Origin: an uncultured SAR116 cluster alpha proteobacterium
GTDB taxonomy: Bacteria > Pseudomonadota > Alphaproteobacteria > Puniceispirillales > Puniceispirillaceae
DNA length: 54,296 nt
NCBI GenBank assembly: GCA_902523435.1
Contig: CABYZM010000007.1
Span: forward strand, 1-54,296
Direction: 5' to 3'
The notes beneath the pieces were generated by a model. It was given only the letters and a program-made list of their open reading frames with translations. It was not told where the DNA came from and made no database searches. Position numbers and translations under genes: made by a program. Below, piece after piece: positions 35,943 to 53,871 of the stretch; the stretch's first letter is position 1, and each line of letters opens with the position of its first letter.

Positions 35943-38900
35943 ATGCAAAATGGGATCGATTACCTTAGCGCATTAAATGTGGGAAGTGGTCTCAACGTTA
36001 CTCAGATTGTTGATGCAATCGTTGACGCAGAACGCGTGCCACAAGAAAATGCCATCCAAAAAAGGATTGATGACCGAACAGTGTCGGTTTCAGCTCTCGG
36101 TCAATTAAAGGGCGATTTAACTACACTGGATAAAAGTCTTGAGTCAATTGACGGCAAGACCGGCCTTGTCACTAATTCATCAAGCACAGCAGTTACTGTT
36201 GAAGAAACTGGAACTTATTCAGTTGAGCCATTTGAACATGAGTTGAACATTACACAAATAGCCAAAAGTCACACCGTGTCTTTTGCTGGTTTTACCTCTG
36301 CCACATCAACATCAAGTACAGAGAGCATACTAATTGAATTTGGGGAATGGAACACTGCTCGAGACACTTTTACTGTAAACACCGACCGTGCGGCTCAAAC
36401 CGTTAATGTTGGGACAGGTCCAAATACAATAAGTGCAATAGCAGATGCGGTAAACGCAGCGAATATTGGTGTCACAGCTAGTGTCATCAAATTGAGTGAG
36501 GGTAGCTATTCTATATCTTTTATGAGCCCAACTGGTCTGGACAATCAAATGAGGATTACAGCAACAGGAGCTTCAGACAGAATTACGGATATTACGGCTA
36601 CAACTGTAGAAGGTTTTGACATAACGATACCAGCGCCCTCTGCCAGCAGTTCAGGCACGGACTTAGAAAGATTTGTAAACGATTATCCTGGGGGCAACTA
36701 TTCAATTTCCGGAGATATTAAATTCACTATAAATAGCTCTACCGGTGAAATAACAAGCACGGATATGATTGCCTTTTCAGATGGCGCGAACCGGACTTTG
36801 ACAAGAACTTATACTAGTGGGAGCAATACAATTAGTGAGACAGTTTTCATAACTGTCACAGAGGACACTGCTAAAACAGTCATTAGACAAGCTCGTTCAG
36901 AGCTCGACATTCATACTCTTGATGGTCTGACTATAAATGCAATCTCTGGAGGTCAATCTGGAGCGACCCAAGGTAGTTTAAGTGCGCAGCTTGCCACATT
37001 TATTTCAGAAACTAGAGCATTAAACGGAACAGATGGAAACTTCTCATTAGGTGGAGCCGATGCTAGTGATTTCACGCTTAACACCAGCACTGGTGCAATA
37101 GTTTATTCAGGTGGTGGCCAAATTACTGGAGATAAAAACCTAACACTAACTTATCAAGCGGCAAATGGGGACACTTTTGTTGAGACAATCGTAGTTGACC
37201 ACGACAATTCTCATGTATCAATTCATGAATCTACCCTAAATGCAGTGAACGGCGGCGGAAAAATTGTCTACGATTTAGGAAACAATACAAACTTTTCGTC
37301 TCGTCTTCAGACTGTATTCAATGCTGCCTCCACACCTCAATTTTCGTTGTCCGGGCAGCCAGCAGGCGTGACGGTTAATCATGTTGAAGAAACTTACACT
37401 ACCAGCGGTGTTAATATAGGTTCTGCGCCAGCAGAAAACGATATTTATGAGCTTGTGGTAGGTTCCACAACTTTGAGAACAGCCTCTGCTGGCGTAGGGG
37501 GATATACCTCTTTAAATGATATTGTAACCGCTTTGCAAAATGATAGTGATTATGCAGGGGCGCCCTTTACTATTTCAGACACAAATGGCGCAACTGCTGG
37601 GGGAGAAATACAAGTAATCTATAAAACGGGCGGGCCTTTAACCGACCAGACCATAAATTTCACAAAAGTCCAGGAAACCGAGAGGTATCGTACATCTACA
37701 TCAATAAATATTGGTTCGACCAACCAATCGAATGACGTTTTTGAGCTTGATGTCGATGGCATTGTTTTAACAACTGCTGCTGCTGGAGCGGGAGGATACA
37801 CATCATTAGATGACGTGATTACAGCGCTTCAAGCCGACGCAGATTATGCCACAGCACCCTTCACGGTTGATTTAGGCGGTTCTCTTGCCACGCCCAGAAT
37901 TCGCGTCGAATACAAATCACCAGGCGATCAAGGCGACGTGAACATTACATTTACTAAAACTGCAGGAACGGTTGATGGTGATTTTAACAACGGTGGTTAC
38001 GATGGTACTGTGATATCACCATCTAGGAATGGTTATGGAATTCAAACTGGTTTTAATAATGGAGGATTTAATAACGCCACCCAAACCCCAGATGCAGGGT
38101 TAGATGGAAGGTATGCCCTTGAGTTTGACTTTTCAGACGCATCACTGAATGCAGGGCAGAATGTGAATTTTGATATCAACTTTAGTGATGGTGGAGTTTT
38201 AAAACACACAGAAAAGGTATCTTTCACAGTAAGCGCAGGGAGTGATTCAGTCTCACGTGCGGCAGACAATGGTCCAGTAGATTTCACAGTTGAAACAGCC
38301 GGCATGTCAGTCAGCAATAATACAACTACCGAGCCCGATTATGAAAACACCGCAACGACCTCAGCGGCTTCTCTTTCGTTGAACTATAATCCCACAATAC
38401 GAGTTGCAGATAATCGCCATTTTGCAATGGCAGGGCAAAATGCTCTATTCACATTCAATGGTGTCAATATCATCCGTGAGGAAAATGAAGTTGAAGACCT
38501 GATTAACGGTATAAAATTAACTCTCAATGATACAACTACAGGCAACATAACAATAGGCGCGTCCTATGATGCCACTAAAGCACTGGCAGACCTGAAGGGT
38601 TTTGTGGCCGAGCTAAACGGTATGATCTCGAAGCTAACTACACTTACGTTTAGGGGAACGCCAGGAGAGGCCGATCAAGGCCCATTAGCAGATGATAATT
38701 TAGCAAAATCGTACCTAAGGACATTGAAGTCTCTAACAACTAAGCCGATTGTAGGCTATGGCGACTCGGACACCTTTCTATCAAATTTTGGTGTTATGAC
38801 AGAAAGAGATGGCTCCCTGACTGTTGATGAAACGAGATTTAACAAGTTTTTTGCAGCAAATCCTGATTCCTTTTCAGCTGTTATGAACAGCAGGGTCGTC

Positions 38901-39404
38901 GCAGATAGTAGTTTAGTCAAACCGGAATTATCCGGCACAGCATGGGAGCCTGGAAAATTCGAGTTTAATATTGACCCAGACAACACAGCAGATATAAGAA
39001 AAGTACTGCCAACACCAGCAGAAACAGCAACCACTGAATTGAGTCTTTCCAACGGTAGATATCTATCTACATCTGGCGGAGCGAGGGGCCTTGCTGTAAC
39101 TCTTTTAGGTGAGGGACAGGATACTAATATTTTTATCGGCAAAAGCCTTTTAGATATGGTTCGAGATTTTGCCGCCCCTATTATATCTTCCACTAGTGAT
39201 ATCACTAGTAGAATAAGCAACTACAATAAAGATGTTGCAGATTACAAAACAGATTTAGAAGAATTAAACAAAAGAATAGAAAACTCTAGATTACGCTATA
39301 CCAAACAATTCAGTGATATGAACTCTGCAGTCTCTGGTTTCAAAAAAACAGAAGAGCTTCTTACAAATTTTCAAGAAGCATGGAAAGCTTCATTGAGCCG
39401 ATAA
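35943..39404 (+). CDS. fliD: Filament cap protein FliD, giant form
   Basis: Cap (HAP2) that folds flagellin at the filament tip. Usual FliD is 450-650 aa; here 1153. N-terminus is typical (SALNVGSGLNVTQIVDAIVDAERVPQENAIQKRI..., then the FliD_N ITQIAKSHTVSFAGF region) and so is the C-terminal coiled coil (LDMVRDFAAPIISSTSDITSRISNYNKDVADYKTDLEELNKRIENSRLRYTKQFSDMNSAVSGFKKTEELL). The middle (about residues 230-800) holds cadherin-like modules shared with flagellin 2 and a tandem pair of ~95-residue units (GSAPAENDIYELVVGS... and GSTNQSNDVFELDVDG...). Convergent with the 161-aa gene. Confidence 0.93.
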   Translation: MQNGIDYLSALNVGSGLNVTQIVDAIVDAERVPQENAIQKRIDDRTVSVSALGQLKGDLTTLDKSLESIDGKTGLVTNSSSTAVTVEETGTYSVEPFEHELNITQIAKSHTVSFAGFTSATSTSSTESILIEFGEWNTARDTFTVNTDRAAQTVNVGTGPNTISAIADAVNAANIGVTASVIKLSEGSYSISFMSPTGLDNQMRITATGASDRITDITATTVEGFDITIPAPSASSSGTDLERFVNDYPGGNYSISGDIKFTINSSTGEITSTDMIAFSDGANRTLTRTYTSGSNTISETVFITVTEDTAKTVIRQARSELDIHTLDGLTINAISGGQSGATQGSLSAQLATFISETRALNGTDGNFSLGGADASDFTLNTSTGAIVYSGGGQITGDKNLTLTYQAANGDTFVETIVVDHDNSHVSIHESTLNAVNGGGKIVYDLGNNTNFSSRLQTVFNAASTPQFSLSGQPAGVTVNHVEETYTTSGVNIGSAPAENDIYELVVGSTTLRTASAGVGGYTSLNDIVTALQNDSDYAGAPFTISDTNGATAGGEIQVIYKTGGPLTDQTINFTKVQETERYRTSTSINIGSTNQSNDVFELDVDGIVLTTAAAGAGGYTSLDDVITALQADADYATAPFTVDLGGSLATPRIRVEYKSPGDQGDVNITFTKTAGTVDGDFNNGGYDGTVISPSRNGYGIQTGFNNGGFNNATQTPDAGLDGRYALEFDFSDASLNAGQNVNFDINFSDGGVLKHTEKVSFTVSAGSDSVSRAADNGPVDFTVETAGMSVSNNTTTEPDYENTATTSAASLSLNYNPTIRVADNRHFAMAGQNALFTFNGVNIIREENEVEDLINGIKLTLNDTTTGNITIGASYDATKALADLKGFVAELNGMISKLTTLTFRGTPGEADQGPLADDNLAKSYLRTLKSLTTKPIVGYGDSDTFLSNFGVMTERDGSLTVDETRFNKFFAANPDSFSAVMNSRVVADSSLVKPELSGTAWEPGKFEFNIDPDNTADIRKVLPTPAETATTELSLSNGRYLSTSGGARGLAVTLLGEGQDTNIFIGKSLLDMVRDFAAPIISSTSDITSRISNYNKDVADYKTDLEELNKRIENSRLRYTKQFSDMNSAVSGFKKTEELLTNFQEAWKASLSR

Positions 39405-39406
39405 TA

Positions 39407-39427
39407 ATTTCCTTATTTAAAGGAAAT
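39407..39427. terminator. Possible bidirectional terminator after fliD
   Basis: A perfect 8-bp inverted repeat (ATTTCCTT / AAGGAAAT) with a 5-base AT loop, immediately after the fliD stop and overlapping the 3' end of the convergent gene. It has no long U-tract on either strand, so it may be weak. Confidence 0.35.
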
Positions 39428-39902
39428 CTAAAGGGTTGCTGTTTTTACTTGCGATTTCAGCTAAAAATGGGATTTCAGTTTGAATAGATAGTGACCAATT
39501 GTGTGGCGCTAAAACTGCCTTTTCAGAACGATGAGCAAATAGATAAGCCTTAAATCTTTTTGGTGTTGTTTCAACAGAATACTCTTTTTCCTTAATCCCT
39601 GCCCATGCATTGCCAAACATTGGCTTTAGATTGCGTTTCACACCCTGAAACGAATAGTGAAGACGAAAGTAAGAAAATCCCTCAAGCAAACTTACAGCGT
39701 GTTCGCCAGCCTCTATTTCACCTAAGACCCGGACCATCGCCTCCGCCGATAACTCCATCTCATCACCAGACAATTCCTTATACTCTTCCGATAATCCAGA
39801 AGCGTATTTGGCAGCGCCTAGAGTTAAAGCCACATCATTCTTAATGAAAAGAGAGGCAATCTCAGCGCACACAATATCAAAAATCCAGTCTGGGCAATAC
39901 AT
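39417..39902 (-). CDS. Hypothetical protein between fliD and flagellin 1
   Basis: A 161-aa mixed alpha/beta cytoplasmic protein without signal or membrane segment. Notable parts are AKYASGLSEEYKELSGDEMELSAEAMVRVLGEIEAGEHAVSLLEG and the more beta-like FRLHYSFQGVKRNLKPMFGNAWAGIKEKEYSVETTPKRFKAYLFAHRSEKAVLAPHNWSLSIQTEIPFL. I do not recognise the family. It lies alone on the minus strand, convergent with fliD and divergent from flagellin 1; no sigma-54 promoter is seen upstream. Its setting suggests a filament-related role (chaperone, regulator) but nothing more. Confidence 0.55.
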   Translation of the reverse strand: MYCPDWIFDIVCAEIASLFIKNDVALTLGAAKYASGLSEEYKELSGDEMELSAEAMVRVLGEIEAGEHAVSLLEGFSYFRLHYSFQGVKRNLKPMFGNAWAGIKEKEYSVETTPKRFKAYLFAHRSEKAVLAPHNWSLSIQTEIPFLAEIASKNSNPLDFL

Positions 39903-40120
39903 TTAGCAACCGTTATTTAACTTCAGTGAACTATTCAGTCTTATCTCTATTTTTCATGATAAAGTATATTGGTTTTAGCTGTTAACACTCGATAATAGTG
40001 ACATAATTGATTTTCTTCAAAGAATTAAAAAAAAATTTAAAACATTTTTTACTCTGTCGTTGTATTTTTCGTGGCCGCTGTTGGCCTTTTACCCAGTTAA
40101 TACAGACTTTGGAGAAAAAA

Positions 40121-42949
40121 ATGACTGTTATTAATACAAATGTTGGAGCATTGAAAGCGCGTGTCGCTAATTTTGCTGCCCAAACAAACATGGAAAAGGC
40201 CATGGAGCGTCTGTCCTCAGGTTTGCAAATTAATTCAGCTTCTGATGACGCCGCTGGTTTGGCCGTTGCTACTAAGATGGAAAGTCAAATACGTGGAGTG
40301 AATATGGCCATCAGAAATTCAAATGATGGTATTTCACTTGTACAGACAGCTGAATCCGGTATGGCAGAAATTTCGAACATGGTTATTCGGATGCGTGAAC
40401 TATCAGTCCAAATGGCCAACGGAATTTACTCTGACGGCGACCGCACCAATGCTCAGTTGGAAGTCGACGCTCTTCTTGCCGAAATCAACAAAATTTCAGA
40501 AAATACCGCGTTTAACGGGGTCAAAGTGCTTGATGGTTCTTATGACTCAGAAATTCGCGCTGGTAATACCAATGCTGAAGTGGTGAACATTCAAGTAGAA
40601 CGTATGCACACCGACTCCCTTGGTGGAACCGCAATTACCACTCGGTCTGACGCCGCAGTTGATACATCAGCGACTTTCGTCCACACAGCCGCTAAGACAT
40701 TGATAAATGTTCAGGAAGGGCAGGTTCAAGTATCAAAGGATGTATTCAGTCAGGGTTTTAAGGACTTTGTCATTGCAAATGCAGCGGGCACTTATGCTGT
40801 TTCAACGACAGATGACGGTGCTTTGTTCCAAGTTGATCAGACAACTGGCGGCATTAGTCTCAAAGAAACCACTGGAGAGCTCGATTTTAACACGGCTCGC
40901 GACTTGAATTTCGACGGCGTTTATGAATTTTCAGTTACTTACACTGTTGGCTCCGAATCTGTCACTGAACACGTCAAACTGACAGTAACCGATACTGCGA
41001 CTAAAACCTCTGCAGCCAACACTGGTACAACAAACTTAACTGTCGAAGAAGCTGAAAACGTTCAATTCGAGACAGTTGGTGTGAACGGTGTTTTAAGTGA
41101 CGCATTTAAAGAATTTGTTGCCTCCGATACTGGAACTGGAACATTCGCTCTCGTGGCTGGCGATGACGCTGACCACAACGGCTCAACCACAGCTGGAGAT
41201 TTTACTGTCAACTCTGCAACCGGCCTAATTACAGCAAAAACTGGACGGTTAGATTTTGAAAACCCTAATGACGTTGGTGGAACTAACCACGACAATAGTT
41301 ATCTGATCACAATGACCTACACATCGTCCACAAATAAAGTGTATACAGAGACAATCAATATCGACGTGACTGATAACGCTACAGAAGATGCTGGTTCGGT
41401 GGCAATTGCATCAGAAAGGGCGCATATTGGAAGAAGCGCAATACAGCTTAGCCAAGATGATAGCACCAACCACCTAGATTTTAGTGTGTCAACTGTTCAG
41501 GATATGTTGTCATCTGGAGCAAAAGAATTTATTGCTCGTCACGGCGGAACCGCTGCAGCAGGCAATGTGTTTGGTCTCCTCGCCATAAGCTCTGAAACAA
41601 TGACTGGTGGAGCTGCTGCTAACGTAGGTGCTATTGCTACTGGTAACGAGTTCGGTATTGACACTAATGTCGCCGCAACCGCAGATGACTTGAACACCGC
41701 CAACGAAGTGCGACTAGGCGTTGGCGATGATTCTGGGAATGGTGTTATTACATTAACACTAACACTCTCTAACGCAACCGATCAGACTGCCGCTACAACC
41801 GAATTATTTACTGAAACTATTGTAGTAAGTGTAACTGACAACCATGCAGCGGGTACTGGTAATTATACCCAGGACTCAACCGGTGCAACAGAACAGGGCG
41901 GTGCTATCAGCACTTACACTGGCACATCAAACGGTGAAGCGGTTACGTTAAACCTTGGCGATAGAACAATATTTGCTGACCTGGTAGCCTACACAGAAAT
42001 TGCAGGAAATTCAGGCGGTAGCTATGCGCTTTTTGACTTTGATGGTAATCCTTACACTAAGGCAGCTGACGGTATCGCAAACGCAGAGGCAGGTTCTAAC
42101 ACTGATGCTAAAGGTTATGAGCTGGTAGGAAGCACTCTTACACTTGATGCTGGTGCTGACGCAGGACAATACAAGGCTCGAGTCGTCTACACAGATTTGG
42201 GGGGCAATACATTCACCCAGCAGATTGACTTGACAACTACAGCCGCAGCGCATCCTTCAACAGCTTCAGTTTCACAGAAGTCAACCGACCAATTAAAAGA
42301 TGGAATAACTGCATCTACCGAAGTGGTTGGCGGAAAATCTGTTCTTAACGTAAATGAAGCAATGGAAGCAACCATTCAGGTGAGCGGTGGTTCAGGTGTA
42401 CTTAGCCCAGAGCTAGGCACTTTCCAGACTTCATATGCAAAAGGCACCTTCAGTCTTTCCGGTGCTGATGCGGCTGATTTTGAAGTGTCTAAAACTGGAG
42501 ATATTACGTCAAAAGTTATCATGAACTTTGAAGATAAAGCTCAGTATAACTTTAACCTTGTGTATTCTCAGGGTGATAATGTCTACACCGAGACTATTCA
42601 ATTGAATGTTGTTAACAGCACAGCTGATGATGGAAATCACATTGCTAACGTGAATATTACATCGCAAGCAGGTGCATTAGAGGCGATATCAATTTTGGAT
42701 ACTGCTCTGAATTCAATTACAGCTGCACAAGCGAAATTGGGTTCGACACAGAACAGACTGCAGCATAACATAGATAACTTGACTGCTTTGTCTTCACAGA
42801 CAGAAACGGCAAAAGGGCGTATTACTGACGCAGATTATGCCGCAGAGACAAGTCAGCTATCAAAGCAACAAATTTTGTCTCAAGCTGCAACATCTATGCT
42901 TGCTCAGGCAAATCAATCCAAGCAAAGCGTATTAGCTTTACTTCAGTAA
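40121..42949 (+). CDS. Giant flagellin 1
   Basis: Filament subunit of 942 aa (usual 270-550). The N-terminal D0/D1 is intact (INTNVGALKARVANFAAQTNMEKAMERLSSGLQINSASDDAAGLAVATKMESQIRG..., to about residue 160), as is the C-terminal D1/D0 (ISILDTALNSITAAQAKLGSTQNRLQHNIDNLTALSSQTETAKGRITDADYAAETSQLSKQQILSQAATSMLAQANQSKQSVLALLQ). Between them are about five beta-rich cadherin-like modules of ~100-130 residues, each ending in a TExIxxxVTD strand (e.g. GTFSLSGADAADFEV...). The ATG at 40121 has GGAG; the longer upstream frame is not credible. No clear sigma-54 promoter. Ends at a bidirectional terminator. Confidence 0.95.
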   Translation: MTVINTNVGALKARVANFAAQTNMEKAMERLSSGLQINSASDDAAGLAVATKMESQIRGVNMAIRNSNDGISLVQTAESGMAEISNMVIRMRELSVQMANGIYSDGDRTNAQLEVDALLAEINKISENTAFNGVKVLDGSYDSEIRAGNTNAEVVNIQVERMHTDSLGGTAITTRSDAAVDTSATFVHTAAKTLINVQEGQVQVSKDVFSQGFKDFVIANAAGTYAVSTTDDGALFQVDQTTGGISLKETTGELDFNTARDLNFDGVYEFSVTYTVGSESVTEHVKLTVTDTATKTSAANTGTTNLTVEEAENVQFETVGVNGVLSDAFKEFVASDTGTGTFALVAGDDADHNGSTTAGDFTVNSATGLITAKTGRLDFENPNDVGGTNHDNSYLITMTYTSSTNKVYTETINIDVTDNATEDAGSVAIASERAHIGRSAIQLSQDDSTNHLDFSVSTVQDMLSSGAKEFIARHGGTAAAGNVFGLLAISSETMTGGAAANVGAIATGNEFGIDTNVAATADDLNTANEVRLGVGDDSGNGVITLTLTLSNATDQTAATTELFTETIVVSVTDNHAAGTGNYTQDSTGATEQGGAISTYTGTSNGEAVTLNLGDRTIFADLVAYTEIAGNSGGSYALFDFDGNPYTKAADGIANAEAGSNTDAKGYELVGSTLTLDAGADAGQYKARVVYTDLGGNTFTQQIDLTTTAAAHPSTASVSQKSTDQLKDGITASTEVVGGKSVLNVNEAMEATIQVSGGSGVLSPELGTFQTSYAKGTFSLSGADAADFEVSKTGDITSKVIMNFEDKAQYNFNLVYSQGDNVYTETIQLNVVNSTADDGNHIANVNITSQAGALEAISILDTALNSITAAQAKLGSTQNRLQHNIDNLTALSSQTETAKGRITDADYAAETSQLSKQQILSQAATSMLAQANQSKQSVLALLQ

Positions 42950-42966
42950 AATTGAACAAAATAACG

Positions 42967-42997
42967 AAAAAAGGGCGCCCTCACCGGCGCCCTTTTT
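42967..42997. terminator. Bidirectional terminator between the two flagellin genes
   Basis: A perfect 7-bp GC stem (GGGCGCC 42973-42979 with GGCGCCC 42986-42992) and 6-base loop, flanked by five to six A on the left and five T on the right. Both convergent flagellin genes can therefore end here. Confidence 0.93.
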
Positions 42998-43000
42998 ATT

Positions 43001-46000
43001 TTACCCTTGAAGAAGAGTTAGAATTGATTGGGAGGTTCGATTAGCTTGGGCTAACATGGATTGGGCGGCTTGTGAGAGAACCTGAGCTTTTGTCATCTCA
43101 GTTGTTTCCACAGCTATATCTGCATCTTGTATGCGTGACCGCGCAGCTTTAGTATTCACAACAACATTCGAAAGGTTGTTTATTGTATGCTGCATCCTAG
43201 ACATGACAGCACCAAGGTCCGAACGTTCAAGGTCAATTCTTACCAAAGCACCGTCGACTGCCGTAAGCATCTTTTTAGCACCTTCAACAGTCATGACATC
43301 CAAAGATGACACAGAAGAGAGTGTTGCTGCCCCAGGCACTGTTTGGAAAAGACCACCACCATTTACACCTGTTTTTCCTACATCAACCGAGAAAATATAG
43401 GGTGAATGGAAGGTAACTTGACCGGTTGACCGGAAGGTATCGTTGTTGCCAACACCCTTTCTCAATTGTTGGGTCTCACCAATACTCACAAAGTTGTCAT
43501 CTGTAGATGAAACATTCATCGGGATGTCGAGCACGGACAACGTGAAATTTTCTAGCACGATATCATACCCTTCATTAGAGAATAGGTGCATAATATCGCC
43601 TCTATTGGAAACCTTGGCGCTAATACCTGTTTTTCCAGATATTGAATTAACAGCATTTGCCAGATCACGAACACTTGCATCTCGTCCGCCTATCAAGCCA
43701 AAATCAACATTAGCTGCAACCGTAATTGGGGAATCATTTACGCCTTGAAGACTGAAAGTTACAGTATCAGTTTTTAAGTCTGATTGGTCAGGAAAACTTA
43801 TATTGACCCTAGTCATGGCGTCTGCATAGACACCCGTCTCGCTCTGCTCAGCATTGATAGCCTGAACGATGTCATATGCCGAAGATTTTCCATTAACATC
43901 GATTACTTTGGTGCCAACATTTCCAAAGATTGTTAGATCCTCATCCTCGTTTATTAAGCTAGCCGCTGTAGTACTATCTGTTCCTAAAAGAGGTTTGCCA
44001 GCTGCTTGGTTCGCGTTGTTATCTGAGGTATCATCTGTAATTGTAACAGTGATCACATCCGTGAAGTTGTTGGTACCTTGGGTGTATTTTAAACTCACCT
44101 CATAAGTGCGGTCCAATCCATTATCATCTGGTATTTCAAAATCGACATGTGATTTGGACTTAATCTGCCCTGTCGTCGCGTCAACCGAAAATAACGCTGC
44201 ATCAGTGCCCGCTATAGAGAATGTACCACCAGTATTTGCAGTAACAAAGTTCCTCAAATTGACACTCTGAGAATCAGGCTCGAGTACTATTTGAGCGCCC
44301 TCTGCCATGGTTATTGCAGTGTTAATCTGGCCATTTGTGCCATCTGTATAACTAGGCGTGCCACTACCAGAAGTGTATGCTGGGCCTTCATTTCCAGTGT
44401 GATTTGTAGTTGTGGAACTAGCGTTAGGTACAGTGAAGCTTCCAGGACTAACATCTGTAGCTCGCGAGACAGAATCAGCCGGCTGTGAGCCAGCAACAGT
44501 AAATGAAACTTGCTCTGTATGAGCTACAACGCCGCCATTAGTTAAAGTCATTTCAAATGAAACAGTTGTACCTGCCGCCAAGGTGCCATGTGATAAATCA
44601 AATGCCAAATTGTCTGATGCTGGTGAATTCACTGTTACACCTGTGGGAGCACCGGTCAGAGTTACTACTGTGGCGCCACTTGTAAAAGCAGTATCAAATG
44701 CAGTAGAAAAATTTCCAGTAGTGTTCATATCATAGTTTACAGAGCCGGGAACAGCAGCAGAGGCCACGTTCAAAGTTACCTCACCAATCGACGGATTAGA
44801 AGTTGAATGGTCTATAACGATAGTTTCTGTAAAGACGTCACCTACATCTGAAGTAAATGTCAATTCAAGGGTTTTATCAGTATTGAGCAATGTCGGCGAG
44901 GACGCCCATGTAATTTGACCTGAAGTTGCATCTACCCTAAACTGTGCTGCATCCGCACCACCCAAAGTAAATGTCCCGTTGGTGCTAGATACTGCTCTCG
45001 AATCCTGAACAAACGTCGCAAGTTGCGCACTAAGTGAGCCTTGAGTGGCGTTGCTTTGGTTCGTCGTTGAATCGATAGCATTTATAGTTATATCATCCAC
45101 GCTATTGACATTTATGGTAGAAGTAGCAGAGCGGACGATAGTATTTGGGTTCACATCAGTGAGAGTCAATGTAATTGTCTCTGTGAAGATGTTAGGGCCC
45201 TGCGTATAAACCCTTTCAACAGTTTGTGTGTTTGGAAATTCCGTTGTAGCTTTAGTATTGTCAAATTGCTTTAAACTTGTACTAGTGATTACACCTGTGG
45301 AAGCGTCTACAGAAAAACCTGAAGTCGTGGTCGAATAGGATCCGCCGGGATAAGTGGTTGCAAAAGTATCAAGCGCTGAACCACTAGAAGCCGGACCGGT
45401 GATTGTCATATGAAAACCCTCGTTAAGGGTAACAGCGCCTGTGCCACTATTTACAATATTGTTAGAAGTGGTTGAAGTAGTCGCCAATGACTCGGTAACA
45501 ATCCTATTTCCAGAGTTAATTACATCTGTCTTAAGGATGAACTCGCCTAGGCCGGTTGGCTTGACATCCTCTATGGACAATGTTGCGGTATCGTTTGGCT
45601 GAAATCCAACTTGGAATGTGGTATCAATAAAAGACCCATTAAGCATTTTTACGCCGTTAAAAGTAGAGCTTTCAGCAATCCTGTGAAGTTCATCCTGCAA
45701 AGCACCAACCTCATTTTGGATGGCTTGACGATCCTGTCCTGTGTAAACACCGTTTGCAGATTGCACAGATAATTCACGCATTCTGTGGAGGATGGCAGTC
45801 ACTTCTTCGATTGCTCCTTCAGCAGTTTGAGTCAAAGAGATTGCGTCAGCGGCATTTCTAATAGCAGCTTCCAAACCTTTGATTTGCGAAGTCATTCGAT
45901 TAACGATTGACGCCCCTGCAGCATCATCTACTGCATGATTCAAGCGCAGTCCTGATGAAATGCGTTCGAGTGCTTTGTTCATTCCATCTTCTTTATTGCG

Positions 46001-46051
46001 AAGATGGTAAAGGGTCGTTACCCCGGCCATATTTGTATTAATCTTGCTCAT
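43001..46051 (-). CDS. Giant flagellin 2
   Basis: Filament subunit of 1016 aa, convergent with flagellin 1. N-terminal D0/D1 reads INTNMAGVTTLYHLRNKEDGMNKALERISSGLRLNHAVDDAAGASIVNRMTSQIKG. C-terminal D1/D0 ends in NVVVNTKAARSRIQDADIAVETTEMTKAQVLSQAAQSMLAQANRTSQSILTLLQG. The centre has four cadherin-like modules and a flagellin-hook-IN-like module (FSLQGVNDSPITVAANV...DLANAVNSISGKTGISAKV). Modules 1-3 match the middle of FliD. The ATG at 46051 overlaps the stop of a 63-codon ORF (ATGA). Two sigma-54 promoters lie upstream. It differs strongly from flagellin 1, even in D0/D1. Confidence 0.95.
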   Translation of the reverse strand: MSKINTNMAGVTTLYHLRNKEDGMNKALERISSGLRLNHAVDDAAGASIVNRMTSQIKGLEAAIRNAADAISLTQTAEGAIEEVTAILHRMRELSVQSANGVYTGQDRQAIQNEVGALQDELHRIAESSTFNGVKMLNGSFIDTTFQVGFQPNDTATLSIEDVKPTGLGEFILKTDVINSGNRIVTESLATTSTTSNNIVNSGTGAVTLNEGFHMTITGPASSGSALDTFATTYPGGSYSTTTSGFSVDASTGVITSTSLKQFDNTKATTEFPNTQTVERVYTQGPNIFTETITLTLTDVNPNTIVRSATSTINVNSVDDITINAIDSTTNQSNATQGSLSAQLATFVQDSRAVSSTNGTFTLGGADAAQFRVDATSGQITWASSPTLLNTDKTLELTFTSDVGDVFTETIVIDHSTSNPSIGEVTLNVASAAVPGSVNYDMNTTGNFSTAFDTAFTSGATVVTLTGAPTGVTVNSPASDNLAFDLSHGTLAAGTTVSFEMTLTNGGVVAHTEQVSFTVAGSQPADSVSRATDVSPGSFTVPNASSTTTNHTGNEGPAYTSGSGTPSYTDGTNGQINTAITMAEGAQIVLEPDSQSVNLRNFVTANTGGTFSIAGTDAALFSVDATTGQIKSKSHVDFEIPDDNGLDRTYEVSLKYTQGTNNFTDVITVTITDDTSDNNANQAAGKPLLGTDSTTAASLINEDEDLTIFGNVGTKVIDVNGKSSAYDIVQAINAEQSETGVYADAMTRVNISFPDQSDLKTDTVTFSLQGVNDSPITVAANVDFGLIGGRDASVRDLANAVNSISGKTGISAKVSNRGDIMHLFSNEGYDIVLENFTLSVLDIPMNVSSTDDNFVSIGETQQLRKGVGNNDTFRSTGQVTFHSPYIFSVDVGKTGVNGGGLFQTVPGAATLSSVSSLDVMTVEGAKKMLTAVDGALVRIDLERSDLGAVMSRMQHTINNLSNVVVNTKAARSRIQDADIAVETTEMTKAQVLSQAAQSMLAQANRTSQSILTLLQG

Positions 46052-46239
46052 TTCGCTTGCCAATCCAGTTTAGTTGGACACCCTGCGTTGTTGCAAATGC
46101 CGTGCCAATCACACGCAGCGTTGCCAGTTAATCTAGTCTTAGTAAAAAATGAAGGGTTGCCTGGGGGCATTACCTTTCCTTTCTCTAGAGACAGTCCTGG
46201 GGGTTCAGCCCAGGCAATTTTGAAAAATTGGTTTTGCAT
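46048..46239 (-). CDS. Small ORF (63 aa) coupled to flagellin 2, uncertain
   Basis: A 63-codon frame with GAGAGAAAG six bases before its ATG, about 40 bases downstream of the distal sigma-54 promoter. Its stop overlaps the flagellin 2 start (ATGA). Three cysteines near the end (ACDWHGICNNAGC). No family recognised. Against it: the proximal sigma-54 promoter and an inverted repeat are inside the frame, so the coding appearance may be a by-product of a duplicated promoter region. If real, it could couple or regulate flagellin translation. Confidence 0.35.
   Translation of the reverse strand: MQNQFFKIAWAEPPGLSLEKGKVMPPGNPSFFTKTRLTGNAACDWHGICNNAGCPTKLDWQAK
46092..46108 (-). promoter_or_regulatory. 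Proximal sigma-54 promoter of flagellin 2
   Basis: On the minus strand TTGGCACGGCATTTGCA: an exact match to the -24/-12 consensus. Expected start near 46080, about 30 bases before the flagellin ATG. Confidence 0.93.
46157..46217 (-). other. Inverted repeat in the flagellin 2 leader
   Basis: Perfect 9-bp arms TTGCCTGGG (46157-46165) and CCCAGGCAA (46209-46217) with a 43-base loop, plus two direct copies of CCTGGGGG (46160 and 46196). It lies between the two sigma-54 promoters, so only the longer transcript would contain the hairpin. No terminator-like U-tract follows. Confidence 0.5.
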
Positions 46240-46278
46240 TGTGCTTTCTCTCACAATTAATTTGACACGGTGAAAAAG

Positions 46279-46295
46279 TGCAAATGCTGTGCCAA
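46279..46295 (-). promoter_or_regulatory. Distal sigma-54 promoter upstream of flagellin 2
   Basis: On the minus strand TTGGCACAGCATTTGCA, identical to the proximal promoter at 16 of 17 positions. Expected start near 46267, about 28 bases before the small ORF. Downstream flanks of both promoters also look alike (GTGTCAAATTAA versus GTGTCCAACTAA), indicating a duplication. Confidence 0.88.
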
Positions 46296-46403
46296 AGTGA
46301 AACATCAGACTCAGAAAACAGTTATAAGGTAATGATTTTGTTGAATTCCCTGAAATTTGTTTGCTATTATGTTTTCCTGTCAATTTTTTGAATTCGAATA
46401 ATT

Positions 46404-46433
46404 AAAAAGGGCAGAAACATGCCCTGCCCTTTT
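46404..46433 (-). terminator. Terminator of the flgH-I-J-K-L run
   Basis: A 10-bp stem (AAAAGGGCAG / CTGCCCTTTT) with a 9-base loop, followed by U residues on the minus strand, about 26 bases after the flgL stop. Its A/T flanks on both sides could also let it work on the plus strand. Confidence 0.85.
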
Positions 46434-46459
46434 GTACAATTTTGTTATTGAAGATTTGT

Positions 46460-47746
46460 TTAGCGAATATAATCAAAAAGACTTTGTTGACCGATATTCG
46501 CAAAAGCTTGTTGCGCCGCATCACGGTTTGTTAACTGCGACTGTAACTCTGTTACAAGTTTTGCCAAATCAGCGTCACCCATAGCAGATATATCTCTTGT
46601 CACCGCTAACTTTCTACTTTGGAGCACTTCGATTTGAATCTCAGCCTTCGCCATTTGCGCTCCCAGTCTAGCTTGCTGTAATGCAAGATGATCAATGGAA
46701 CTTAGAACGTTTTCTATGCCACGTCCAAGCAGTTGATCCTCGTCGGTTAAAACTCTTTCTTTACCAATTTCTGCTCCATTCACATCAAGCGCTATCACTG
46801 CCATATTATAAAAACCAGCCTGACTAGCAATGCCTTCACCCTCAATTTCGACGTCTTCTATTACGATCAAGTCTGTGGTTGTTTCTGTTAGAAAAATAGC
46901 GCCGGTCTTTTTATCAAATTCTGCAGTAACACCTGTCAGATCTGACTTAGCATTAATTGCATCTGCTAGATTTTTTTCCATCCCTGATGCTAATGTTGTT
47001 GCAATAGTTACAGCACCAACTCCACCTTTCAAAGTAAATGACCAGTCTTGATTTTGTCTTGGTAAATCAAGCCTAACTCTCGCACTGCCTTGAGCTGTAG
47101 CCATTTCGTTGATTTCTCGAAGAGGGTCTATTGAACCCATCAACCCTTCAACAACTTCAAAAACACTTTTCGGTCCACCGGCTGTCTGCACTCTCCCAAA
47201 CACACTTTCACCATCAACTGCTGTTGATACGTTAACATTCTCTGATACTTGAACCGTATGAATGCCTCGGTCTCCATTGTAAGAAACCGTGCCATCCAAA
47301 TTCCTCACAAACGCATCAGCATCTGTCTTAAAACCTGAAAATAGACTTTGGCCATATGCATCTCGGGTATTTGCTAATTCAACCAGAGTTTGGTGAAGGG
47401 CTTGCATCTCAGTCAGTATAGCTTTCCTGCTGAACCCATCATAGGCTGGACTGCGTGCCTGTGTTGCTAGTTCTGAAATACGGGTCATCACAGATATTGT
47501 CTCTTGCAACGTCTTATCACTTGCACTGAGACGAAGTTGAGCTTTATAGGCATTATCCTCAAAACGATTTAAAAGCTGTTCTTGTTCTCTGGCGGCTGAC
47601 AATTGCGCTGCAGCAACTGGGTCATCAGATGCTTTCAAGATTGCTTTTCCAGAAGCAATTTTTTCCTGCTTTTTTTGAATGTCTTCTGTCAGTTTTCCAA
47701 ACTGTCTAATTTGCTGTTCGTTAAATAATTTTGTACTTACCTGCAT
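46460..47746 (-). CDS. flgL: Hook-filament junction protein FlgL (HAP3)
   Basis: A 428-aa junction protein. N-terminal MQVSTKLFNEQQIRQFGKLTEDIQKKQEKIASGKAILKASDDPVAAAQLSAAREQEQLLNRFEDNAYKAQLRLSASDKTLQETISVMTRISELATQA is typical FlgL, and the C-terminal helix runs to an end in the D0 domain (LQSRKLAVTRDISAMGDADLAKLVTELQSQLTNRDAAQQAFANIGQQSLFDYI). A flagellin-hook-IN-like stretch sits near residues 225-290. Length is only slightly above normal, in contrast to its giant partners. The ATG at 47746 has GGAGG; the TTG one codon before is less likely. Confidence 0.94.
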   Translation of the reverse strand: MQVSTKLFNEQQIRQFGKLTEDIQKKQEKIASGKAILKASDDPVAAAQLSAAREQEQLLNRFEDNAYKAQLRLSASDKTLQETISVMTRISELATQARSPAYDGFSRKAILTEMQALHQTLVELANTRDAYGQSLFSGFKTDADAFVRNLDGTVSYNGDRGIHTVQVSENVNVSTAVDGESVFGRVQTAGGPKSVFEVVEGLMGSIDPLREINEMATAQGSARVRLDLPRQNQDWSFTLKGGVGAVTIATTLASGMEKNLADAINAKSDLTGVTAEFDKKTGAIFLTETTTDLIVIEDVEIEGEGIASQAGFYNMAVIALDVNGAEIGKERVLTDEDQLLGRGIENVLSSIDHLALQQARLGAQMAKAEIQIEVLQSRKLAVTRDISAMGDADLAKLVTELQSQLTNRDAAQQAFANIGQQSLFDYIR

Positions 47747-47757
47747 CAAAACCTCCG

Positions 47758-50700
47758 TTAGACAACCTCAATCAGAGTTTGAAATAGCTCTCTCGCTGTT
47801 GATATTACTCGTGCTGATGCTTGATAGGCCTGCTGAAATTCAATAAGGGCGGCAGCTTCACTGTCAAGATTAACTCCCGAGAATTGCGCCTCAGACTCAA
47901 TGGCGGCCTCTCTTGTAGCGTCCGCACCATCTAGCGCCTGCTCATTGGACCGAACAGATGCACCAACAGTTGCTACAATTGTGGAAAAAATATCAGAAAA
48001 CCCTCCGGAACCTTTACCATTCATATCGCCAGATTGTTGTGCGATCATAGCCGCTAAGTTCCTGGAATCACCCGCCCCACTTTCTGTGCGCTCTATGGAA
48101 AATTGGTCGTTGAATGCAGACTTGCCTTTAAGCTGGACCTGATAGTTGTCAAATGTGAAAATATTATTTTCATCAACTGTGCGGGTTGCAATTGAATGTC
48201 CTGTATTTTTGTCAAGTATTTCGTAACGAAGTGAATCGTCAGAAACCGCTTTGATGGTCAATCCACCTCGGTCTAGTGCTGCGGCAATATAGGCATCAGA
48301 TTCAGTAGCTATCTGATCATAAACTCCATTAATCAGCCTTGCTCCAGAGCCTGTTGTGAATACTAGAAGATCTTCGACAGCGGTGTCATTGATAAATATT
48401 GTTTGGCTAGCTAAGCTGTTTGCAGTAGCAGTAACATCCACGACATCACCCTTTAAGCTCTCCACCAAAATATGTTCATCAGTAAGCTGAAGCTTTAGGT
48501 CAGCTGTTTTCATGCCAAGCGCATTTTGTGGTTCAGCAAATGAGACGCTATTTACGTTTGGGTCATATTCAATAATCACACGCCCACTGTCTGAACCTGT
48601 AACAGTTGAATTTATCAAAACACCATTTGGTAAAGCTGGAGCAGTTGTAAGAATACCATTTGCATCCATAGTGACTGTGTGAATTGTATTGTTTATAGTT
48701 AGATTTAAACTAGGTAAATCAGCAGCAGCCGTAAACTTAGTACTCGCAAAACGCATTTTAGTAGTGTTTAATCCAAATGAAGTAGCATTGTCGCTATTTC
48801 CAGAAATTTTTGTGTCCGATGTCACGGTTACGACTTGTCCTGATAGTGTACCACCAGCAATTATTTGCAGTTTCAACTGATTATCAAAATAGGCTGTCAA
48901 ACGGCCTTCTTCGCCTCCAGACACTTGAAGCTCATCATCGACCATCTTAATTAGGTAGGTGTCACCAGAGAAATCTACATAAACCCCATCACCGTTTTGG
49001 GGCATGGATTTTGCCGCTACAGAAGAAGACAAGGTTAGAGTAGAATTTGATGACGCATCAACGAAGTTCACTGAGCCCATCGAGAAACTTTGACCAACCT
49101 CTTTTGCCTCAATTCTTAATTTGAATTCCGTAACTGAGTTTACAACCTCTGAAAATGCTGTTGCGGTTACTCCTAGATTAGCTCCATTCACAAGGAAAGC
49201 GGCTGCCTCATTTAATTGCTGAGCTGTTGTTACTGCATTTCCTAGACCATCACCATTTGCCATATTCACTGTCAATGTCTGTCCGGCAACCGTAAGATTC
49301 ATCGTATCCGCACTTGGATCAATAACCGTTGGACCAGAAAAAGTGTATACCAAACTCTGTGGCTTCGCTGCGGCATCACCGCCACTTAAGCTGGCTAATG
49401 GCGCCTGTTGACGAAGCTTATCTACCAATTCACGCTGGATGCCGGCCTTTGTCATTACATCAGAACTTCCAGAAGACACCTCAGCTGAAAAAGTGATGTT
49501 GTTGTCACTTGTAGGCAAATCTAAACTATAGCGGCCTGCGGCAGCGACAGCGCGCTGACCGTCAAATGACGCTTCATTCCGGTCAGCTTCATCATTCACG
49601 ATAAATTGAATGGTTTTTTTATCTGAACTGGCATTAGGGGTGATTTCAACTAATCCGTTTCTGGTAGTGTCAGCCACGCTATTTGAAGTAACACCTTCTT
49701 CGGTTATAAGACTAAAGCTATTGGCTGAATCCAACTCCACCAAACCGGAAAAACGAGCGTGATCAACAGGTGCGTTAGCACCACCAAGTAATACGGAGGC
49801 TGCCGCTCCGTGGCCTTTAGCATCAATAGGCTTTGCATTTAATTGAGGTGAGGTTGAAAGATAATCAGAGATAAAAATATCTTTTCCATCAGCTTTTACC
49901 AAAATAATGCGTTTTTTATTGCTTGAGAGTTCAGCAGTTATGCCTGTGCGACTTGACTGGTCATTAATCGCATTCACAAGATTCGTCAGATCATTTTGCA
50001 CAACGTTTGTTTGAACTTGTATTGGTATGCGGTTATCACCTTCAAGCTTAAAACTCACTGTTCCTGAAGCAGACAAATCCGATAACTCAACCCGCATGTT
50101 CGCACTTGCTTTAATCCCTAAATTTTGAAGCCTCTCGTTAAGGTTTTTTGCTACATCGCTCGCTGCATCCCCGGACCGTAGTTCAACAGATGTTGTCATG
50201 CCATTGCTCAAAGCAATTCTTATTGTCTGGTCAGCAGCATTGCTGGTTGGCATGCTTCCACGGCCGAATTGAGCTGACGCGCCTACGCCATCAGCGCCAA
50301 TTGTCAAGGTGTGCATACCTGACGAACGAGCAATGTTTATTGCCATATTCCTATAAGCCGGCTCTTTTTGATTCAAATATTCACCGGTGTATACAGCTTG
50401 TCTAGAAAAACCGTTTTCGTTCGTAATAATTTCATTGAGTTGCTCATTCGTTAGGACAGTTCCAGCAATATGGCGGCCTTCCCGTGTGAAAATTTGCAAA
50501 TCAGACGCTGAAATAGAATCTTTTACAGATGCTCTGAGTGCACCGCTCCCGATAGATAACTGTGGCAAATGAGTGTCAGAATCATCAAAATCCCCTCGAG
50601 AACTTGTTAGTGTTAATGCCCCATTTGCCCCACTCGCATAAAGACCATAATCAATAAGAGAATTACTGTTTTCATCTGTTAGCACACCTTTATTAAGCAT

Positions 50701-52389
50701 GTCAGCTACTTCTCTGGTATCTGACCAACGGTTAGTTGACGGTGCTGAAGGGAAAATTGAATTGTAATTTAAATTAAAAGTAAATGGACCAGCAGGAGTT
50801 GTATCTTCCAGCTTAAAACTAAGCTGTGTTAAATTCGACAATTCTAAGTCAGAGACCTGAAATTTTGCTGATGCTTGTCTAGCTAGCGAGGTTAAGGCTG
50901 CAGGCCCGGAACCAGCAGGTATTTCAGCGACTAAGCCATCACGAATAAATTCTGAGGCTTCAATTGGTGAGGGCGAATTAACAAGAACTTCGTCAAGACG
51001 CGGTAATTGTGTTTTGTCGCTTGGCGCAACAATATCGATATCAATATCAGCATCTGACAGGTTATCTGCATTAGCAGTGATCAATATTCCAGATGCCGCC
51101 GCCAACTGTTGGGGTTTTTCAAGCAAAAATCGCATGCCCGAAGCAGCGCCAGTGAGCGTTGAAAGATGAAAAACATCCCCTGCTGCTGCCTGACCGTCAA
51201 TCCGGAGAGTAAAGCCGGGTCCTTTCACCTCTTTTGAACCACGAAGAGGGGTATCCAAAGCAGGACCAGATATTGTCCAAACATCATCTTCTTTTGAGTA
51301 AGTTGCTGTTAAATCGGAAAGAGGTAACAACTCAGGGTTTGTAATTAAAAGCTCACCTCTAACTTCACTGCGATTAGTTATACCCAATGACAAAGTCATG
51401 TTTTTATCCGAAAACATATTTGTGCCGGCTTCACCCTCAAGAGTGATACCTTTCGAGTGTTGCCGATTCATTTCTTGGCTCATCAAGGCAGCAAGGTGAT
51501 TCACATCTTTCAGTGCCTCCATAACTGCCTTATTTGCGTCGATTAAACCGCCTGTCATGCCAGCAGTTATCTGGTTGGTAGCAATATCCTCTCCTCCGGT
51601 CCTAATCAATGGCTGCATTCCACTGCTAGTCTTTCGCACTCCAGTCATTATAGCCTGCTTACCTTCAACGATAGTTGGTCCGACACCAGATGATCCCAAT
51701 TTTACATTCACTACGCCACGTCCACTGTAGCTTACCGTCAGATCAGTAAGCTTTGACAAATTGGTAATTGCTTTATCACGCAGATCATAAATTGAATTTG
51801 GAGATTGACCAGACTGACCAGCTGCCATGATTCTTCCGTTTATATTTGCTAGCTGATTGCTGATCAAATTAATCGTATCAATGCTGTCATCCATTAGAGA
51901 TTCGGTATTGGCAAGCAGTTGTTCAAGCTGCGCGGCATAGTTGTTGAAGCCAGCTGCAAGTGACTTACCTTGTTCAATTGCAACTGCACGCGGCGCAATA
52001 TCACTTGGCAAGGCTGCAACTTCTCTTAAACTATCAAAAAAACTCCCGATTTGTGCACCTAGATTGCCTTTATCAGGCAAAAGCATATTCTCTAGTTCTT
52101 TTAACTGTTTGACAAAAACATCAAGTTTTTCAAAACTAGCTGATGCCGAACGGGCTCGGTCTAAAAGATACTGATCGAAAGATCTATTGATATCTGTCAC
52201 CCGAACGCCTAGTCCGGTCTGAACAGGGAGACTGGTAACACCACCTTGGGAACCAGTCACTTCTTCTAGTTTAGCCTCTCGACGTTTATAGCCCTCAGTA
52301 TTAATATTGGCAATATTCTGACCAGTCACCGTCAATGATTGACGGTAAGAATTTAAGGCAGATTTTCCAACATCAAATAGGCTGCTCAT
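47758..52389 (-). CDS. flgK: Hook-filament junction protein FlgK (HAP1), giant form
   Basis: Junction protein of 1543 aa; FlgK is usually 450-700. N-terminal D0/D1 is typical (SLFDVGKSALNSYRQSLTVTGQNIANINTEGYKRREAKLEEV... to about residue 230), as is the C-terminal end (NEQALDGADATREAAIESEAQFSGVNLDSEAAALIEFQQAYQASARVISTARELFQTLIEVV). About 1000 residues of beta-rich modules sit between, including hook-IN-like units (e.g. FKLEGDNRIPIQVQTNV...NDLTNLVNAINDQSSRTGITAEL) resembling those in flagellin 2. No frameshift is seen, so the frame is real. GGAG precedes the ATG. Confidence 0.95.
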   Translation of the reverse strand: MSSLFDVGKSALNSYRQSLTVTGQNIANINTEGYKRREAKLEEVTGSQGGVTSLPVQTGLGVRVTDINRSFDQYLLDRARSASASFEKLDVFVKQLKELENMLLPDKGNLGAQIGSFFDSLREVAALPSDIAPRAVAIEQGKSLAAGFNNYAAQLEQLLANTESLMDDSIDTINLISNQLANINGRIMAAGQSGQSPNSIYDLRDKAITNLSKLTDLTVSYSGRGVVNVKLGSSGVGPTIVEGKQAIMTGVRKTSSGMQPLIRTGGEDIATNQITAGMTGGLIDANKAVMEALKDVNHLAALMSQEMNRQHSKGITLEGEAGTNMFSDKNMTLSLGITNRSEVRGELLITNPELLPLSDLTATYSKEDDVWTISGPALDTPLRGSKEVKGPGFTLRIDGQAAAGDVFHLSTLTGAASGMRFLLEKPQQLAAASGILITANADNLSDADIDIDIVAPSDKTQLPRLDEVLVNSPSPIEASEFIRDGLVAEIPAGSGPAALTSLARQASAKFQVSDLELSNLTQLSFKLEDTTPAGPFTFNLNYNSIFPSAPSTNRWSDTREVADMLNKGVLTDENSNSLIDYGLYASGANGALTLTSSRGDFDDSDTHLPQLSIGSGALRASVKDSISASDLQIFTREGRHIAGTVLTNEQLNEIITNENGFSRQAVYTGEYLNQKEPAYRNMAINIARSSGMHTLTIGADGVGASAQFGRGSMPTSNAADQTIRIALSNGMTTSVELRSGDAASDVAKNLNERLQNLGIKASANMRVELSDLSASGTVSFKLEGDNRIPIQVQTNVVQNDLTNLVNAINDQSSRTGITAELSSNKKRIILVKADGKDIFISDYLSTSPQLNAKPIDAKGHGAAASVLLGGANAPVDHARFSGLVELDSANSFSLITEEGVTSNSVADTTRNGLVEITPNASSDKKTIQFIVNDEADRNEASFDGQRAVAAAGRYSLDLPTSDNNITFSAEVSSGSSDVMTKAGIQRELVDKLRQQAPLASLSGGDAAAKPQSLVYTFSGPTVIDPSADTMNLTVAGQTLTVNMANGDGLGNAVTTAQQLNEAAAFLVNGANLGVTATAFSEVVNSVTEFKLRIEAKEVGQSFSMGSVNFVDASSNSTLTLSSSVAAKSMPQNGDGVYVDFSGDTYLIKMVDDELQVSGGEEGRLTAYFDNQLKLQIIAGGTLSGQVVTVTSDTKISGNSDNATSFGLNTTKMRFASTKFTAAADLPSLNLTINNTIHTVTMDANGILTTAPALPNGVLINSTVTGSDSGRVIIEYDPNVNSVSFAEPQNALGMKTADLKLQLTDEHILVESLKGDVVDVTATANSLASQTIFINDTAVEDLLVFTTGSGARLINGVYDQIATESDAYIAAALDRGGLTIKAVSDDSLRYEILDKNTGHSIATRTVDENNIFTFDNYQVQLKGKSAFNDQFSIERTESGAGDSRNLAAMIAQQSGDMNGKGSGGFSDIFSTIVATVGASVRSNEQALDGADATREAAIESEAQFSGVNLDSEAAALIEFQQAYQASARVISTARELFQTLIEVV

Positions 52390-52392: not shown

Positions 52393-52692
52393 TTACTCCG
52401 TATGCCTAATGCCACCAAGTTGCCGAACAAGTGCATTCGCAATACCAAGGTCAATTGAACCCGCAAGCTGTTGTGCGCGCGCCTGATCCAATAGAGAATT
52501 ATAAGTTTCAGTGCCTTTATTTCCAAATATATCCTCAGCCAGCTTAGTCTTTCGCGACTGTGCCAGAAACTGATTTATAAATATTGCCTCAAACTGTTCA
52601 GCGACTTCGTGTAAATCACTTTTTGAATCAGGTAATTTAACGAGATTTTCAGTCATTAACGGACTGACTGTATTTTTTACTTCCATTCTCAT
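52393..52692 (-). CDS. flgJ: FlgJ-type rod-binding protein, no muramidase domain
   Basis: A 99-aa protein corresponding to the FlgJ N-terminal rod-binding domain: DLHEVAEQFEAIFINQFLAQSRKTKLAEDIFGNKGTETYNSLLDQARAQQLAGSIDLGIANALVRQL. The peptidoglycan-hydrolase domain of enteric FlgJ is absent, as usual in Alphaproteobacteria, so another hydrolase must open the wall for the rod. It lies between flgI (15-base gap) and flgK (3-base gap). Confidence 0.92.
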   Translation of the reverse strand: MRMEVKNTVSPLMTENLVKLPDSKSDLHEVAEQFEAIFINQFLAQSRKTKLAEDIFGNKGTETYNSLLDQARAQQLAGSIDLGIANALVRQLGGIRHTE

Positions 52693-52707
52693 TAGCTCTC
52701 TTAGTTA

Positions 52708-53844
52708 CTAAATCACAACCAGTTCTGCTCGAAGGGACCCTGCCTCGCGGAGTGCTTCAAGAATTGCTACTAGGTCTGCAGGACTTGTGCCTACTGCATT
52801 TATTGCCTCCACTATTTCTGAAAGTTCAACACCTGGGTCGAACATGAACGCACGAGCCTGCTCTTGCTCAACGTCAATTTCGGTATCCGCTACCTGCTCG
52901 GCAGCACCAGGAGCAGCAACAACCGCGCCATCCACAGCTCCAATAGCATTCTGCTGCACAATTTGAGGATTTTCGTCAACACGCACAGTCAACGAGCCGT
53001 GGGTCACAGCCGCGGGTGTCACCCTTACATCTCCACCAATTACAACAGTACCAGTGCGAGCATTCACAACTACTTTTGCTGACTGTCGCTCAGGCTCGAT
53101 CTCAATATTTTCTAGCATGGAAATGAAGGATACCTTCTGCGAGGGTTCAACAGGAGCGCGCACCTTCACTGATCTTGCATCCAATGGCACAGCCACACCA
53201 TTTCCAAAAACATTATTGATTGCTTCAGCCACCTGATTCGTTATTGAAAAATCACCTTGATGCAGGTTAAGAATTAAATTGTCTGTTTCAAGAAAGCCGG
53301 TTTCAATAAGTCGTTCAACTGTTCCTCCCCCAGGAATGCGTCCAACAGTTGGAATATTTACGATAAGGGATGAGCCATCAGCACCCTCGACACCAAGACC
53401 GCCAACAAGCAAATTTCCCTGCGCAACAGCATAAGCTTCTCCATCTGCGCCCAGAAGAGGGGTCATTAAAAGAGTGCCTCCTCGCAGTGATTTCGATTGC
53501 CCCACTGTTGAGACAGTAACATCCAATCGTTGACCAGGTTTGGCAAAGGCGGGTAGTTCTGCTGTAACAATCACAGCGGCAGAATTTTTGCCATTCAAAT
53601 CTAAGGCTGAACTTGTAGTTACACCAAATTGGCCAATAAGTGATTGCATGGACTGGAGGGTCAATTGTGAACTGCCATCGCCAGTCCCTGGCAGCCCAAC
53701 CACAAGCCCATAACCAACTAATTGATTAGCCCGCACCCCAGCAATCGAAGTGAGATCCTTAAGCCTATCTGCATGCGCTGTATTTACAGCCATAAGGAAT
53801 ATTGCAGTAACAAATATGGAAATTAATGACAAAATAATCCTCAT
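52708..53844 (-). CDS. flgI: Flagellar P-ring protein FlgI
   Basis: A 378-aa periplasmic P-ring protein. It has a signal peptide ([23 protein letters not shown], cleavage near residue 25), then the very conserved [33 protein letters not shown]...[71 protein letters not shown] and the C-terminal [38 protein letters not shown]. Complete. Between flgH and flgJ. Confidence 0.97.
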
Positions 53845-53871
53845 CGTAATATTTTATTCCTCAATTTATGA

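Follow-up and report, generated by a model that had tools for sequence, protein, structure and literature searches.

The window analyzed here, a 54,296-nucleotide stretch of contig CABYZM010000007.1 from an uncultured SAR116 cluster alphaproteobacterium (order Puniceispirillales), carries a flagellar gene cluster in which the cap protein FliD, the two flagellins FlaA and FlaB, and the junction protein FlgK are all enlarged. Sequence comparison of these proteins and of their counterparts in related genomes indicates that, across the order, the axial proteins of the hook, junction, filament, and cap repeatedly share modules private to a genome or lineage. Giant flagellins are already known; the sharing of modules appears to be new. 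The best reading, which we put at nearly four chances in five, is recurrent duplicative transfer, in which sequence from the surface region of one axial protein was repeatedly copied into that of another, in addition to an enlargement of the hook and junction that is itself ancestral. It rests on the homology of FliD and FlaB, the conserved order of their shared repeats, the restriction of this FliD-FlaB homology to one clade, and comparable events that involve different partners in related genomes.

When the window proteins were compared pairwise, residues 223-479 of FliD matched residues 211-475 of FlaB with 42% identity over 269 columns (E = 1e-50, compositionally adjusted). The region of FliD between residues 218 and 766 holds three FlaB repeats, R1 to R3, with the FlaB order kept (42-45% identity, E about 1e-50); the second half of R3 was recovered as a high-scoring segment pair (HSP) between FliD 727-841 and FlaB 488-621 (open reading frame [ORF] numbering; E = 2e-13). 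Chance or low-complexity similarity was rejected on the strength of the adjusted E value and of the lineage shuffles described below. When 41 repeats were placed in a tree, FliD R1 grouped with FlaB R1 (99/92) and FliD R2 with FlaB R2 (100/99), both pairs being nested among flagellin repeats. FliD R1-R2, used as a query against 136 genomes of the order (E ≤ 1e-8), returned only the FliD and FlaB proteins of G000, G004, and G005 and, distantly, one flagellin of G001, and the repeat block was missing from every other FliD aligned. The insertion that splits R3 is absent from FliDs outside the clade; its two tandem copies are visible in the translation, and no origin was found for them. The big ORFs are open frames that differ from their orthologues far more at third codon positions than at the first two, inserts included (for FliD 218-480, the amino acid identity was 0.79 and the third-position identity 0.44), and the long regions are therefore under protein-level constraint. 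Because the repeat is widely spread in flagellins, the transfer probably ran from flagellin to FliD, FlaB being the putative source-like copy, and the simplest history would be that the FlaB block entered fliD through one copying event in the common ancestor of G000, G004, and G005.

A hidden Markov model (HMM) of the repeat, built from the window, identified four copies in FlaA, three in FlaB (plus one weak), and two in FliD (plus one weak and split). The repeat occurs in many flagellins of the family, in 1 to 14 tandem copies, and among FliDs only in this clade; the model found none in FlgK and none in FliDs outside the clade. Fourteen tandem copies are present in a flagellin of 2101 amino acids (aa) in G001 (G001:C29:9646-15948, locus L098). 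A 16-row alignment of the repeat searched against the PDB matched cadherins, with a best E value of 6e-7, and cadherins made up nearly all of the top 60 matches. The AlphaFold model of the repeat had a predicted local distance difference test (pLDDT) score of 89, and its best Foldseek matches were nearly all cadherins (E about 2e-4, template modeling [TM] score about 0.6). Pfam Cadherin stayed below its cutoff on the window proteins, and the profile and fold searches favor cadherins at moderate scores. Of the calcium-site motifs (xEx, LDRE, DxNDN), sought by regular expression, an early E was seen in 82 of 96 repeats and an LDRE-like motif in 24 of 96. Judged by profile and predicted fold, the repeat is cadherin-like, which does not in itself imply adhesion. 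G031, a relative that gave no match to flagellin, FliD, or FlgK, has at least 71 weak matches to the repeat, located in extremely long ORFs of as much as 12514 aa.

The cross-comparison of all axial proteins of the relatives revealed sharing with other partners. FliD and FlgK of G007 are 71% identical over 120 aa; in FlgK this module is a clean 120-aa insertion, lacking in seven otherwise collinear FlgKs, and among 20 genomes searched it was found only in the FliD and FlgK of G007. FlgE, FlgK, and FliD of G013 share one module three ways (49-67% identity), the g13 lineage shows sharing between FliD and FlgK (53%), and the g14 lineage (G027 and G039) shows it between flagellin, FlgK, and FliD, at up to 57% over 431 columns, with flagellin and FlgK at 56%. 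The flagellin-FlgK pair of G039 has a third-position identity of 71% at identical residues, which points to a recent exchange. The two modules used as queries, in 136 and 20 genomes, were each essentially confined to the axial proteins of one lineage. When lineages were shuffled between protein classes, the score over all pairs averaged 574 bits versus 2448 bits observed, a value reached in none of 20,000 shuffles. The pairs above 70 bits comprised 22 within the same lineage versus 4 between lineages, and all 4 joined the neighboring genera g7 and g8. In other alphaproteobacterial families, the FliDs of G093 (1056 aa) and G111 (950 aa) each have modules in common with flagellins encoded in the same genome, and that of G122 (>900 aa) does so weakly. 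An enlarged FlgL of G093 (541 aa; G093:C2:36776-38398, locus L136) shares a module (33%) with its own 1056-aa FliD.

These patterns bear on two other accounts. According to the first, FliD, flagellin, and FlgK each drew modules independently from an extraflagellar pool of adhesins, phage, or transferred DNA, for which one may cite the weaker cadherin-like repeats in giant nonflagellar ORFs of G031, G025, and G013, as well as Flagellin_IN, an old motif common to flagellin, FlgL, and FlgK. We consider this unlikely, given that the tight repeat family occurs only in flagellins and in the FliD of one clade, that the R1-R2-R3 block is collinear in FliD and FlaB, and that the G007 module is found only in its own FliD and FlgK. 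The second account, in which these middles were original to FliD, flagellin, FlgK, and FlgE and most lineages lost them, is refuted for the strong pairs, since the modules vary by lineage and pair within a lineage and since the module in G007 FlgK is a clean insertion relative to collinear relatives. The distant relationship of the protein ends, the common possession of Flagellin_IN, and a background similarity of about 50-60 bits that FlgK shows to flagellins across many lineages agree with old common descent, which holds true only of this Flagellin_IN background and is otherwise highly improbable.

We then determined the sizes of the axial proteins in 41 genomes, the window's own and 40 relatives from its genus, family, and order. 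Flagellin lengths spanned 260-2101 aa and FliD lengths 506-1169 aa, a FliD near 1150 aa being found only in the window's genome and two congeners. FlgK measured 1114-2475 aa in nearly all genomes having it and was giant wherever read whole (the values of 438 aa in G033 and 871 aa in G002 come from genes near contig ends, not read whole). FlgE measured 1269-1576 aa in the 14 related genomes in which it was read; these proteins exceed the usual length two- to threefold (G004:C100:25175-28984, G005:C7:2248-6057, G007:C10:295195-299304, and 11 more; loci L191-L207). The gene lies outside the window and was not found in the source metagenome-assembled genome, which is 64% complete. In other alphaproteobacterial families, FliD had a median of 693 aa (29 copies, 6 above 900 aa), which places the window FliD at the top, and FlgK had a median of 634 aa, with more than 1000 aa in 3 of 65 copies, the window FlgK lying far above. 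Outside the order, FlgE was mostly 410-760 aa, with 988 aa or more in 5 of 57 genomes; FlgK and FlgE were both large in G047 (1282 and 1285 aa) and G128 (1254 and 1408 aa).

The first-pass annotation had proposed that the matching expansion of the cap and junction reflects coevolution of the whole filament surface, which might give a thick or bristled filament with a possible adhesive function. In the strict form of this reading, the cap and junction could not accommodate a thick filament without growing themselves; the joint enlargement of all four proteins in the window favors it. The coupling of lengths that it anticipated in related genomes proved weak (rank correlations within the order, uncorrected for kinship: flagellin-FlgK, rho = 0.56, P = 0.01; flagellin-FliD, rho = 0.40, P = 0.06). 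FliDs of 565-692 aa occur with flagellins of 1015-2101 aa in G007, G001, G010, and G020 (in G001, FliDs of 576 and 692 aa beside flagellins of up to 2101 aa), while FlgKs of 1114-1219 aa and FlgEs of about 1400 aa stand beside flagellins of 260-404 aa, and FlgL does not follow. G024, G025, and G018 have a giant FlgK with flagellins of 260-310 aa, and G025 combines a flagellin of 282 aa and a FliD of 574 aa with an FlgK of 1200 aa and an FlgE of 1394 aa. Giant flagellins with both FliD and FlgK normal, named beforehand as the contrary case, were encountered by half, as FliD was normal in the four genomes with 565-692 aa and FlgK was still giant. Length coevolution as the main explanation is largely refuted as a rule by the sizes in relatives, and a matched enlargement appears decidedly unlikely. 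What survives of the proposed joint evolution of the filament surface is the sharing of genome- or lineage-private modules, not the matching of sizes. Because FlgK and FlgE are giant even beside small flagellins, the enlargement of the hook and junction is an old order-wide trait, independent of filament size; cap size is untied to filament size as well.

In axial proteins the D0/D1 ends polymerize, the middle faces outward, and the subunits cross the export channel unfolded, so that a middle folding after export could be swapped without disturbing assembly. Recurrent duplicative transfer would have been superimposed on an ancient, order-wide growth of FlgE and FlgK, decoupled from filament size. 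The axial middles, facing outward once D0/D1 had polymerized, would tolerate the insertion of beta-rich modules, and a module carried by one axial gene would repeatedly be duplicated into a second axial gene, probably by recombination within the genome that holds both. In a common ancestor of three species, three cadherin-like FlaB repeats would have been copied in register into the middle of fliD; the FliD block would then have diverged under constraint, and its R3 would later have been split by the nested tandem insertion. The modules presumably occupy an outward position. Why they were retained is a matter for guesses: the cap, filament, and junction might present a matching surface, or the repeats might bind alike on each part, and the selective reason might be a matching surface, adhesion, or phage escape. 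More tentatively, the surface may evolve in concert, genome-private modules being copied among hook, junction, filament, and cap genes to give a common outer surface, with new hypervariable regions being supplied by one axial gene to another.

Several points weigh against recurrent transfer. The FliDs of G072 (1039 aa) and G093 (1017 aa) have no detectable module partner. Synonymous sites have reached saturation in most of the shared pairs (third-position identity, 0.26-0.41); the sharing events are therefore mostly old, G039 excepted, and outside G039 the copying is invisible at the DNA level. An unsampled third donor could conceivably have fed two axial genes of one cell, and the FliD-FlgK pairs are compatible with transfer in either direction. 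The AlphaFold model of full-length FlaB, from a 4-row alignment, had a pLDDT of 39 and was not used.

The five ORFs encoding FliD, FlaA, FlaB, FlgL, and FlgK were read at the coordinates and lengths that the first-pass annotation had given, and its statement that all keep standard ends was borne out, the Pfam domains FliD_N/FliD_C and Flagellin_N/_C and the helical domain and rod ends of FlgK lying at the termini (Table 1). Membership of FlgK in its family is supported by the helical domain PF22638 (E = 3.9e-50) and by the flgK_ends model, above its cutoff. If a giant flagellin, after Thomson et al. (2018), is one of more than 1000 aa with flagellin ends, FlaB qualifies and FlaA is "large" only. 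The long middles of the big proteins gave Flagellin_IN (PF07196) and subthreshold Cadherin in Pfam, and nothing else. A proteolytic flagellin was rejected, as the Pfam scan found no peptidase family, and hence no flagellinolysin metalloprotease domain, in either flagellin. A phage origin was rejected on the PHROG search, in which FliD and FlgK had no match and the only PHROG matched by the flagellins covered their ends. An assembly artifact was rejected because the copies are 40-70% identical and the arrangement recurs in three separate assemblies, and recent expansion by tandem DNA repeats because no such repeats were found.

Table 1. Features of the flagellar locus, in window positions
Feature	Position	Strand	Basis
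fliD, filament cap, 1153 aa	35943..39404	+	FliD_N (E 1.6e-11) and FliD_C (E 2.2e-35), Pfam, both at ends
FliD R1, aa 218-308, pairs with FlaB R1	36594..36866	+	Repeat HMM, 66 bits; AlphaFold2 (AF2) pLDDT 89, cadherin-like fold
FliD R2, aa 320-423, pairs with FlaB R2	36900..37211	+	Repeat HMM, 57 bits
FliD R3, first half, aa about 425-480	37215..37382	+	Collinear with FlaB R3
Insertion nested in FliD R3, about 226 aa	37383..38060	+	Two tandem modules, about 95-100 aa each
FliD R3, second half, aa about 707-766	38061..38240	+	HSP to FlaB; repeat HMM
Flagellin FlaA, 942 aa	40121..42949	+	Flagellin_N/_C (Pfam)
FlaA repeats, aa 194-292, 305-419, 601-709 (weak), 741-833	within 40121..42949	+	Repeat HMM
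Flagellin FlaB, 1016 aa	43001..46051	-	Flagellin_N/_C, Flagellin_IN (Pfam)
FlaB repeats, R1 206-300, R2 312-418, R3 (weak) 423-522, R4 579-674	within 43001..46051	-	Repeat HMM
flgL, 428 aa, near normal size	46460..47746	-	TIGR02550 above cutoff
flgK, 1543 aa	47758..52389	-	FlgK_D1, rod ends (Pfam); flgK_ends
fliS, flagellin export chaperone, normal size	33267..33710	-	PF02561 (E 1.7e-21)
flgJ-like rod-binding protein, flgI, flgH	52393..54270	-	Rod-binding and FlgH (Pfam); FlgI by sequence and position

The gene order is FliE, two sigma-54 activators, FliS, FliD, two flagellins, FlgL, FlgK, the rod-binding protein, FlgI, and FlgH, an otherwise ordinary flagellar cluster with a chloride channel gene interspersed. 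Small ORFs within it (39417-39902 and 33728-34102) matched no Pfam family. Among the relatives, G020 has an array of nine flagellin genes (G020:C1:2231603-2247672, loci L104 and L105), mostly of 400-520 aa and one of 1015 aa, with two further flagellin genes nearby; in several of them one cadherin-like repeat is present. One match of the genome scan, in Vagococcus (L035), was discarded because the search had merged several ordinary flagellins.

The giant flagellins of marine gammaproteobacteria exceed 800-1000 aa, carry tandem repeats between normal D0/D1 ends, and rise in size by repeat duplication (PMC6248924). Those of the window are alike in the placement of their tandem repeats and unlike in that the lineage differs at the phylum level and the repeat is cadherin-like. 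Thomson et al. (2018) did not mention FliD or FlgK and raised the question of whether the other parts of the flagellum are similarly enlarged (PMC6248924); going beyond that work, we measured hook, junction, and cap sizes and found module sharing among them, and for this order the answer is that the hook and junction are giant whatever the filament size, with cap size independent. In flagellin hypervariable regions, the surface middle is replaced and the ends are kept, recombination ending in the conserved flanks; the Escherichia coli and Salmonella regions have no shared blocks, and their source was left open and thought to lie outside the species (PMC7018530). Here, in contrast, a partner is visible within the genome itself, in the form of a second axial gene, and new surface modules may come from such a gene. 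In the literature searched, our coverage of which was incomplete, we met no account of FliD, flagellin, FlgK, and FlgE exchanging modules; this does not prove that there is none. If our reading is true, the outer flagellar surface is built partly from swapped parts, and the order offers natural swap experiments on the function of cap and junction surfaces. Compared with cadherin EC repeats, the repeat of the window shows a moderate resemblance by profile and predicted fold and keeps the calcium motifs only partly. Flagellin_IN is likewise a module common to flagellin, FlgL, and FlgK, but it is old and crosses lineages, whereas modules of the window type are larger and lineage private.

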